A stretch of DNA of 19,315 nucleotides from a bacterium (GTDB lineage: Bacteria; JAHJDO01): positions 1 through 19,315 of the forward strand of contig JAUWOV010000032.1 in assembly GCA_030611945.1 (NCBI GenBank). Direction: 5' to 3'. This document shows positions 8,316 through 19,288 of this stretch, one piece after another (the stretch's first letter is position 1; each line of letters begins with the position of its first letter). The notes under the pieces are model-generated. The model saw nothing but the letters and a program-made list of their open reading frames with translations. It had not been told where the DNA came from and ran no database searches. The position numbers were made by a program, and so were the translations under genes.

Positions 8316-8356
8316 GTGTTACCTATGCGCCCAGCCGGCACATTAGCTTGACAACA
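8316..8356 (+). mobile_element. 41-bp remnant of a transposase 3' end and terminal repeat
   Basis: This segment matches 19228-19268 at 36 of 41 positions without a gap, in the same orientation. It reads in frame as VLPMRPAGTLA-stop, against VLPMCPASTLT-stop in the better preserved copy, and both continue as CAACA after the TGA. The shared end TTGACAACA is what an inverted-repeat terminus ending in ...ACA would look like; IS481-type elements commonly end this way. Upstream of 8316 the similarity fades, so almost the whole element is lost here. Confidence 0.7.
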
Positions 8357-8376
8357 TATACCTGCTTATGTAGAAT
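8348..8376 (+). promoter_or_regulatory. accD-folC promoter built on a transposon end
   Basis: A perfect -35 TTGACA (8348-8353), a 17-nt spacer and a -10 TAGAAT (8371-8376, 5 of 6 consensus). Predicted start is near 8383, giving a short leader with GGAGG at 8392-8396 before accD. The -35 box overlaps the stop codon of the transposase remnant; the -10 lies outside the remnant in host sequence. Confidence 0.75.
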
Positions 8377-11459: not shown

Positions 11460-12068
11460 TTAAAATTCCCTTTCTGTCATTGCGAATCCCGAACACTTTC
11501 GGGATGAAGCAACCTCATCTTTATAATATTCGTCGTCTTCCCATTTTGCAGGATTGTCTTTAATGTATTTGCGGATACGATTCAAATCTTTTTCATCACG
11601 AATAACATGTTCATAATAATTTCGCTGCCATAATTTTTGACCGGGGAAATTACGAAGTTCATTTATCCGTTTTGTGCTCGCAGATTTAACCGCTCGTATA
11701 ATCGTCGGCAACGAACCAGACACCGACAAACCAAATTGTCCCGTAGGGGCACGGCGTGCCGTGCCCAAATCATTAATAATTATTACACCATGTATATGAT
11801 TCGGCATGATAACAAATTCGTCCAATTCAATCTCGTTTCGAATATATCCCGATTTTATCCATTCGTCATTAACAATATTACCATACTCATTAAGGATACA
11901 AAGGGCACAGCACGCTGTGCCCCTACGAATCTCACCAAACAATTGTTGTTTGTCATATGTGCATATTGTTACAAAATAATAACCATTTGATGCATAATCA
12001 TAATTTTTTAACCGCATTGATTGGCGATGATGAATTTGGGGATCATATTTTTTATTTTGAATATTCAT
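11460..12068 (-). CDS. REP-associated tyrosine transposase (RAYT, Y1_Tnp)
   Basis: A single-domain HUH transposase of the RAYT class, which nicks and processes single-stranded palindromic repeats. HUH motif H91-I-H93 lies in MPNHIHGVIII; the catalytic Tyr is Y151 or Y152 in QRNYYEHVIRDEKD; RKYIKDNPAKWEDDE is the usual end of the domain. ATG 12068 (202 residues) is chosen because upstream codons up to 12146 only translate a flanking hairpin repeat, and RAYTs start a short way before the RLKNYDY-xxx-GYYFVTIC segment. AAAGGA precedes it, though very close. Two GC-rich palindromes are inside the frame: one encodes RRGTACCAL (about 48-56), the other LGTARRAPT (101-109). The final residues, after about 184, also translate repeat DNA. 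The stop is 1 nt from the radC start. Confidence 0.92.
   Translation of the reverse strand: MNIQNKKYDPQIHHRQSMRLKNYDYASNGYYFVTICTYDKQQLFGEIRRGTACCALCILNEYGNIVNDEWIKSGYIRNEIELDEFVIMPNHIHGVIIINDLGTARRAPTGQFGLSVSGSLPTIIRAVKSASTKRINELRNFPGQKLWQRNYYEHVIRDEKDLNRIRKYIKDNPAKWEDDEYYKDEVASSRKCSGFAMTEREF
11464..11513 (-). repeat. Hairpin repeat family A, copy 1 (3' end of RAYT)
   Basis: A REP-like double hairpin. The inner stem is a perfect 8-bp ATCCCGAA/TTCGGGAT (11486-11493 with 11498-11505) around a 4-nt loop. The outer stem is ATTGC (11479-11483) with GCAAC (11509-11513). The flank AATTCCCTTTCTGTC is shared with copy 2 at 12082. It forms the last codons of the RAYT and carries the radC ribosome site. 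Confidence 0.8.
11742..11766 (-). repeat. GC-rich palindrome family B, copy 1 (in frame inside RAYT)
   Basis: GGGCACGGC and GCCGTGCCC (11747-11755, 11758-11766) form a 9-bp stem around 2 nt, with CGTAG attached at 11742-11746. It is inverted relative to copy 2: over 25 nt the reverse complement differs from copy 2 at only two positions, one in each arm, and those two compensate each other within the stem. It encodes part of LGTARRAPT in the RAYT. Confidence 0.85.
11900..11926 (+). repeat. GC-rich palindrome family B, copy 2 (in frame inside RAYT)
   Basis: GGGCACAGC and GCTGTGCCC (11903-11911, 11914-11922) form a perfect 9-bp stem around AC, followed by CTACG. The 27 nt from 11900 to 11926 are identical to 13576-13602. 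On the coding strand of the RAYT it encodes RRGTACCAL between the LFGEI strand and LNEYG. Confidence 0.88.
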
Positions 12069-12081
12069 GTCCTTTCGTACA

Positions 12082-12137
12082 AATTCTCTTTTTGTCATTG
12101 CGAACCCCAAACGCTTTTGGGATGGGGTGAAGCAATC
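12082..12137 (-). repeat. Hairpin repeat family A, copy 2 (5' flank of RAYT)
   Basis: The outer stem ATTGC (12097-12101) / GCAAT (12132-12136) is perfect. The inner stem is ACCCCAAA (12104-12111) / TTTGGGAT (12116-12123), with one G-T pair. It shares the flanking AATTCTCTTTTTGTCATTGCGAA with copy 1, so the RAYT gene lies between direct copies of the repeat. One stem position is G-C in copy 1 and A-T here, a compensatory change. An alternative ACCCC/GGGGT pairing is possible. Confidence 0.8.
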
Positions 12138-12289
12138 TTGTATCACCTAGCTTCTTTGTTTCCTTCTTTGTCAACAATAAAAATTTACCCCTGTTGACTG
12201 TTGAATTCATAAATTTCAATTATTTTTTAACAACGACAAGGTTAACCTGCTAATGCCTAAGTCCAAATAGACGAGAGCAACAGTCAGGC

Positions 12290-13500: not shown

Positions 13501-13645
13501 TCTGGATTCCCCGATCAAGTCGGAGAACGACCAAAGAGATTGCCACATCGCTACGCTCCTCGCAATGGGCATAAAAAAGGGCACAGCACGCTGTGCCCCT
13601 ACACGTTTTGATTTCACCAAACAATTGTTGTTTGTCATTCTCCGA
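13501..13645. repeat. Composite repeat block (hairpin C, family A copy 3, family B copy 3, RAYT relic)
   Basis: This fills most of the 368-nt gap 13400-13767. A hairpin TTCCCCGA/TCGGAGAA (13507-13514 with 13520-13527, one mismatch) opens it. Family A copy 3 follows at 13538-13567, bounded by GATTGC and GCAATG but with a different interior. Family B copy 3 is at 13576-13602, then a RAYT fragment to 13638. TCGGAGAACGAC (13520-13531) recurs inverted at 13634-13645 with 11 of 12 matches, so the whole block is itself bounded by an inverted repeat. The remaining 13646-13767 is T-rich and holds only a 35-codon open stretch behind the glycosyltransferase stop; I see no gene there. Confidence 0.75.
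13576..13638 (-). pseudogene. Relic of a second RAYT gene carrying palindrome B
   Basis: On the minus strand this reads NDKQQLFGEIKTCRGTACCAL, against YDKQQLFGEIRRGTACCAL in the intact RAYT. TCACCAAACAATTGTTGTTTGTCAT-equivalent DNA is identical over 25 nt (13614-13638 and 11932-11956) and the palindrome over 27 nt (13576-13602 and 11900-11926). Between them lie 11 nt here and 5 nt there, a 6-nt, frame-preserving difference. Nothing else of the RAYT remains on either side. Confidence 0.75.
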
Positions 13646-13767
13646 TTACTTTTCATTTATTAAAGGATTTGCTGAGATCTCCGTCTATTTTCTTTGCTGT
13701 TTTTAATTAATTTGTTTTTCACAGCTTTGCATACTTCCTCAACAATTATTGATATGTATGTTTTTAC

Positions 13768-19059: not shown

Positions 19060-19263
19060 GAATATGAATGGCTGTATGATGGCAATCTCACTACTGATTG
19101 CGACGAATTTAATCCAGCTGTAACAGACTGGTTGATTGAGTACAATTTTAATCGCCCTCATCAGGCGCTTGATTATTTAACACCCATGAGATATATTGAG
19201 AATCACAATGAAAATCTTAAACAAAAAGTGTTACCTATGTGCCCAGCCAGCACACTTACTTGA
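19060..19263 (+). pseudogene. 5'-truncated IS481/rve-type transposase (C-terminal remnant)
   Basis: About 68 codons remain of a DDE integrase-core transposase. The stretch EYEWLYDGNLTTDCDEFN and then WLIEYNFNRPHQALDYLTPM is the typical end of the rve catalytic domain and its C-terminal tail. The DDE residues and the whole N-terminal region are missing, so it cannot be active. The frame can be read upstream to 19030, but the first ten codons are not transposase. It ends VLPMCPASTLT-stop, and the terminal 41 nt (19228-19268) match the remnant at 8316-8356. Placement in IS481 is a judgement from the tail sequence only. Confidence 0.8.
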
Positions 19264-19288
19264 CAACAGATTAGAAAATCAATATACT
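19260..19288 (+). promoter_or_regulatory. Consensus promoter at a transposon end, driving a gene beyond the window
   Basis: A perfect -35 TTGACA (19260-19265), a 17-nt spacer and TATACT (19283-19288, 5 of 6). The -35 overlaps the transposase stop codon, exactly as at 8348. An AGGAG ribosome site at 19309-19313 suggests a start codon just past the window end. Confidence 0.7.

Follow-up and report, generated by a model that had tools for sequence, protein, structure and literature searches.

GTAG-Tagged REP Palindromes in the Reading Frame of a REP-Associated Tyrosine Transposase and Their Covariation with a Helix of the Enzyme

The 19,315-nucleotide stretch of bacterial DNA analyzed here (referred to below as the window) encodes a REP-associated tyrosine transposase (RAYT, or TnpAREP) whose reading frame contains two palindromes, designated sites A and B. 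On the basis of sequence comparisons, we consider it quite probable that these palindromes are GTAG-tagged REPs located in two loops of a TnpAREP of the subclass 2.4 type and that they belong to the class of REPs that is the cognate substrate for the enzyme they interrupt. In-frame REPs within tnpAREP genes are an already described kind of element (PMC6006769). What is new here is that, among homologous RAYTs, covariation links the stem of the in-gene REP to one face of a single helix (residues 144 to 156) and, more weakly, to residues 95 to 105, but not to positions elsewhere in the protein.

The Transposase and Its Gene

The open reading frame, which begins with a GTG codon, encodes 228 amino acid residues, although the ATG at position 12068 (M27) is probably the true start. 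Its product matches the Pfam family Y1_Tnp and the NCBIfam family NF047646 (REP_Tyr_transpos, REP-associated tyrosine transposase; E value of 4.2e-18, 65.6 bits). The latter score does not reach the cutoff of 80; as the protein is lengthened by the inserts, this lowers the family label and leaves the evidence from fold and motifs untouched. A phmmer search of the PDB with the single protein produced no match; an alignment profile and a fold search both led to the structure of Escherichia coli TnpAREP bound to REP (PDB entry 4er8), which was the top solved-structure match in the fold search (Z score of 13.0, rmsd of 3.1, 129 residues). The AlphaFold2 model of the protein has a mean pLDDT of 79.5. 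As in class 2 TnpAY1 proteins, there are an HUH motif, a single Tyr in a Y---NP motif (Y194---N198-P199 in alignment A1), and the Y1 transposase fold (Table 1). The enzyme is predicted to cleave single-stranded REP.

A second repeat, of the CATTGCGAA type, is present in two directly oriented copies (86%), at positions 11463 to 11506 and 12081 to 12124, which bracket the RAYT core and encode approximately 20 N-terminal and 18 C-terminal residues of the open frame. A further direct repeat, of 44 nt (86%), GTGTTACCTATG..., occupies two intergenic places in the window, 8316 to 8359 and 19228 to 19271.

Table 1. Positions of the RAYT gene, its motifs, and the REP copies in the window
Feature	Position	Strand	Basis
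RAYT (TnpAREP) gene	11460..12146	-	ORF list; Y1_Tnp; NF047646 (below cutoff); fold match to 4er8
Site A, GTAG-tagged REP, residues 74-82 (RRGTACCAL), upstream of HUH	11903..11926	-	Sequence; genome copies; missing in most homologues
Helix 87-102	11841..11888	-	Model; weaker covariation with REP stem at 95, 98, 99, and 102
HUH motif, H117-I118-H119	11790..11798	-	Histidines invariant in homologue alignment A1
Site B, GTAG-tagged REP, residues 127-135 (LGTARRAPT), HUH-Tyr interval	11743..11766	+	Sequence; homologue hairpins
Helix 146-165, downstream of site B	11652..11711	-	Model; mutual information; partial Mantel test
Presumed catalytic Tyr194, Y---NP motif of class 2 TnpAY1	11565..11567	-	Alignment A1; motif from PMC6006769
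Third REP copy, at site A of decayed RAYT fragment (13574-13717)	13579..13602	-

Two Palindromes in the Reading Frame

Site B reads GTAGGGGCACGGCGTGCCGTGCCC on the forward strand and site A reads GTAGGGGCACAGCGTGCTGTGCCC on the reverse strand. The hairpin part of each is a perfect 20-nt palindrome, and the two are in opposite orientations. A preliminary description of this DNA had reported two GC-rich palindromes of opposite orientation that match at 23 of 25 positions and are translated as LGTARRAPT and RRGTACCAL, which agrees with the sequence if the preceding C is counted. Its statement that the differences are compensatory is likewise correct: both of them fall in one stem pair, which is G-C in one copy and A-T in the other. 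The core of site B is ACGGC and that of site A is ACAGC, and the family of this genome is made up of both subtypes. The same description placed the two elements in surface loops flanking the HUH strand. In the model, both do lie in loops, with site A forming the turn of a beta-hairpin (71-75/81-85) and site B a low-confidence loop that leads from the HUH strand (117-124) to helix 146-165; only site B adjoins the HUH strand, and site A is located about 35 residues earlier.

When folded as single strands with DNA parameters, sites A and B form stable hairpins adjoining GTAG (-10.2 and -9.0 kcal/mol). Such stability would suit hairpins that serve chiefly as RNA or translation elements limiting RAYT expression, through mRNA structure or through binding of the enzyme to its own gene, as would the presence of the GTAG of site A on the sense strand. 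However, the GTAG of site B is on the antisense strand, and mRNA structure alone leaves unexplained the covariation with the recognition helix described below, which makes this role unlikely as the main one.

Occupancy of the Two Sites in Homologous RAYTs

Named genomes and whole-genome searches yielded a set of 157 distinct RAYT sequences; phylum-wide extension from three of the genomes (G005, G028, and G033) added almost no further genomes. A hairpin with a score of at least 7 is found at site B in 137 of these 157 RAYTs, and 102 of the 137 have P values of at most 0.01 against synonymous shuffles. Many of the site B elements are perfect “double-foot” REPs, GTAGGGGC...GCCCCTAC, whose stems differ in sequence. 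Their named hosts include Nitrospirae, Deltaproteobacteria, Aquaspirillum, Chloroflexi, and Omnitrophota, as well as Acidobacteria, Planctomycetes, Cyanobacteria, Thermus, and Bacteroidetes. At site A, nothing more than a short loop (e.g., VDGEM) is found in most homologues. Apart from the window RAYT, those with an insert there are L060, L078, L121, and RAYTs from the window's genus. Thus, site B is the standard, near-universal REP site of the clade, and site A is a rarer second site. The description of the two palindromes as inserted elements holds insofar as they are REPs lying in frame; it does not hold for site B as an insertion private to this gene, and in-frame REPs of this kind are known from PMC6006769.

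The filling of site B in most of the clade and the recurrence there of peptides such as RGTARRAPT and VGAxxRxAPT might indicate ordinary protein segments, selected as a basic loop, with the DNA palindrome as a by-product. In that case, the same peptides would be expected throughout the homologues. Instead, the in-gene peptides vary in frame, sequence, and length, and some homologues are without any. The same core read in different frames yields unrelated peptides next to the same helix, the majority of the hairpins exceed the synonymous-codon expectation, and identical DNA also occurs outside the gene. On the evidence of reading frames and codon shuffles, we reject the normal peptide loop, which we regard as very improbable. 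The earlier proposal that it is the hairpin, rather than the peptide, that is kept is supported by the unchanged neighboring helix beside cores read in different frames.

REP Copies Elsewhere in the Genome

With up to 3 mismatches allowed, the palindrome pattern occurs in about 16 places in the 1.66-Mb genome, compared with 0 for a reversed control, and 5' GTAG is found at one end of all 16 copies. These copies lie mostly outside substantial ORFs. Thus, the element has the features of GTAG REPs, namely, a palindrome with a GTAG foot that is repeated in the genome and is mainly intergenic. We dismiss a chance origin of the palindromes at sites A and B because of these 16 copies, all of them GTAG tagged, against none in the control, and because, of 200 synonymous-codon shuffles per site, none reached the hairpin of site A and 1 reached that of site B.

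The palindromes might still be random REP insertions that happened to hit a RAYT gene and are otherwise unconnected with the enzyme. Intragenic REPs are known from other genes of other species (PMC3733652), and the element overlaps other ORFs at three places in this genome (C56:14191, C61:19014, and C73:18495). Yet a hairpin occupies one and the same site in 137 of the 157 RAYTs of the set, and genomes carry several REP classes, of which the in-gene one tracks the helix of the enzyme, so that we find random insertion hardly credible.

The copy at C61:19014 (L023) is REP-like and overlaps the C terminus of a sigma-factor-like ORF of 507 aa, which ends in VGARRDMPL, and the REP-like copy at C56:14191 (L022) is in frame close to the N terminus of a 535-aa ORF (VGAHPAVPRL). 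The same genome contains further classes of GTAG-tagged hairpins, TCGGATTTATCCGA, ACAATATTTTGT, CGGGGCTTGCCTC, and AGGTTTGAAACCT (e.g., at C40:8076, C38:273, C28:33322, and C33:2066); none of these could be paired with a RAYT.

Two of the palindrome copies reside in decayed RAYT fragments, one in contig C43 and one in the window. The window fragment, with 48% amino acid identity and 3 stop codons, nevertheless has the complete 27-bp REP and a 28-bp stretch (96%) in common with site A of the intact gene, and a recent conversion between the two is possible. In the other fragment (L012, G000:C43:2949-3155), homology ends at the 3' end of the site A REP and is followed by a T run and another repeat. 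Thus, both RAYT relics of the genome stop at the 3' end of their own site A REP. These ends and the 28-base near identity are compatible with, and do not prove, REP-centered rearrangement or conversion. Because sites A and B are paired in inverted orientation, a REPIN was also considered, but it was rejected: a 501-bp query found no second place spanning both, so that this unit is not repeated.

Covariation of the In-Gene REP with the Transposase

For this comparison, the REP core was defined as the 5 bases immediately after GGGC in the stem of each in-gene REP. The covariation set comprised 114 nonredundant RAYTs from many phyla and served as the training set from which both this definition and the contact positions were taken. 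The REP classes are accompanied by particular motifs in the helix downstream of site B. Thus, PTIIR[SA]FKS is found with ACGGC, RLFKS with ACGTT or ACATT, GRLIGAFKTVSTKQIN with GGTTC, GAIVRGFKS with GTATN, [FL]IAGFKS with GACCG or GCACG, GAIIGQFKS with GACCC, EIVRAFKTFSARRIN with GGGTT, and RIVGYYKMNTAKRIN with AATTC. Examples include L091 (GRLIGAFKTVSS, core GGTTC) and L063 (GAIVRGFKSTAA, core GTATT). The helix of the window RAYT, SLPTIIRAVKSAS, belongs to the ACGGC group, in agreement with the core of site B.

The mutual information with the core, summed over the 5 bases and shuffle corrected in the 114 proteins, peaks at columns 148, 152, 144, 151, and 141 (2.47 to 1.81 bits), against 0.09 for the median column. 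The covarying residues of the helix that follows site B (144, 148, 151, 152, 155, and 156) are on one face, and the signal in the segment from 143 to 159 has a helical period, with a maximum near 90 to 100 degrees. A weaker group, consisting of residues 95, 98, 99, 102, 103, and 105, is also helically spaced. The linker at 138 to 142 covaries with the REP stem as well; the rest of the protein is silent.

Relatedness of the proteins contributes little to this signal, as the distance between cores correlates with the distance in the rest of the protein with an r value of only 0.08. The partial Mantel r is 0.42 for residues 143 to 157 and 0.19 for residues 95 to 106, compared with no more than 0.05 for the HUH block (0.03), residues 158 to 175, and the Tyr region. 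The value for the helix is 0.41 after identity thinning at 65% and 0.31 at 60%; at 55% (n = 20), it is 0.27, barely above the null maximum of 0.20. In an independent-pair test, five pairs of core and helix traits, which were picked from the same data, switch together in about 11 to 17 pairs, with 0 to 1 switching in the opposite way, and four control residue tests display no bias. This test used all branches of the best tree, as the tree built from the remainder of the protein has poor resolution and its supported branches alone give no power.

The positions were also applied to a held-out set of 31 RAYTs that were fetched later and had not been used in choosing them. Prediction by the nearest contact residues recovered 71% of the bases and 29% of the exact cores in these 31 proteins, compared with 42% and 0% when the rest of the protein was used and with 34% and 3% for the baseline. 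In a separate analysis, prediction was weak when it drew on distant relatives alone (<50% identity elsewhere), at 42% of the bases.

Since the helix is about 30 to 60 nt from site B and the linker between them covaries too, the REP and the helix might covary merely as neighbors that are inherited or exchanged as a cassette, without recognition. However, residues 95 to 106 also covary with the stem, although they are farther from site B than the HUH block, which shows no such covariation, and the signal follows a helical face. Helix identity is 0.68 in pairs with the same core in different frames and 0.72 in those with the same core in the same frame, compared with 0.35 for pairs with different cores, so that REPs in differing frames lie beside the same helix. 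Recent exchange is disfavored by the lack of enrichment in identical helix codons in same-core pairs (0.383, versus 0.428 in the rest of the gene). Taken together, these data make a cassette without recognition quite unlikely.

The flanks of 97 RAYT loci contain 32 hairpins that belong to the in-gene class, whereas 0.29 would be expected if the class were a foreign one. A general palindrome pattern, applied to 16 genomes, was incomplete for high-copy genomes and picked up unrelated REP classes, and it was left out of any cognate count. A look at six genomes matched the abundant GGGTT class of G073 and the GAGGT/GGGGT-type classes of G067 and G069 with further RAYTs that have the expected helices; for the GCAGC class, which is also abundant in G073, there was no matching RAYT among those found in these genomes. 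Because the covariation with the helix survives the tests of relatedness, frame, and held-out prediction and because the flanking REPs are of the same class, the in-gene REP is very probably the enzyme's own cognate substrate. The suggestion that the gene contains a substrate of its product thus gains support from sequence comparison.

Comparison with Known Systems

According to Quentin (2018; PMC6006769), TnpAREP genes of subclass 2.4 hold inserted REPs that leave the reading frame intact. These REPs are double foot and as a rule lie in the HuH-Y interval, in a region predicted to be a peripheral loop. Site B of the window RAYT is an in-frame REP in the same interval, which places the enzyme with subclass 2.4 by this feature rather than by the subclass HMM of those authors. 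The window RAYT differs in having an extra REP upstream of HUH and in that both of its REPs are single tagged. A REP before HUH is not mentioned in the main text of PMC6006769. No description of the covariation between helix and REP was found in the literature searched, including that main text, an absence that is no proof of novelty.

GTAG REPs and REPtrons have been characterized by Di Nocera (2013; PMC3733652) as GC-rich palindromes with a GTAG foot that are repeated and mostly intergenic, with some intragenic copies. In the window, by contrast, it is the RAYT gene that hosts the elements, and the genome has few copies (about 16). The same paper describes the Rickettsia RPE as palindromic repeats that are inserted in frame in ORFs and translated. 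The likeness of the window REPs to RPE is an analogy only. To our knowledge, the genes that host RPE do not encode enzymes known to act on RPE, and we know of no cognate enzyme-substrate relation in that system.

E. coli TnpAREP and the window RAYT have in common, besides the fold, the HUH and Y motifs and the helix that follows HUH. In the E. coli enzyme, however, the loop corresponding to site B is short and holds no in-gene REP, and its REPs are bulged, whereas those of the window type are perfect palindromes. The alpha3 helix of E. coli TnpAREP, located after HUH, contacts the REP through K82 (Corneloup 2021; PMC8266576), and this residue falls at R151 of the window RAYT in a rough alignment. 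How TnpAREP recognizes perfect-palindrome REPs was stated as an open question in that work.

Possible Mechanism and Implications

The simplest reading of the covariation is that the helix at 144 to 156 reads the bases of the REP stem, as alpha3 contacts the REP in E. coli TnpAREP. REPs may enter the two loops, or be replaced there, through cleavage and strand transfer by the enzyme itself or through conversion from other cognate REPs, and would persist because the loops tolerate them. A gene with its own cognate REP would be able to seed a new genome following transfer. The in-gene hairpins might also allow self-targeting or autoregulation, as proposed in the preliminary description. A further idea, which we put forward tentatively and regard as rather doubtful, is that the in-gene REP is an actively maintained record of specificity that updates itself: after a change in the helix, the enzyme would use the new cognate class to rewrite the REP of its own gene, the gene and its substrate would evolve and travel as one unit, and residues 144 to 156, with 95 to 105, would constitute a readable code for the stem bases.

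With one REP inside each gene of the clade, every gene supplies a pair consisting of an enzyme and a sample of its probable substrate, so that a map of residues to bases can be obtained without prior assignment of genomic REPs to enzymes. Such a covariation map predicts the substrates of uncharacterized RAYTs and names the residues for swaps of specificity. The clade also allows one to ask directly why hairpins persist in the gene of an enzyme that acts on them.
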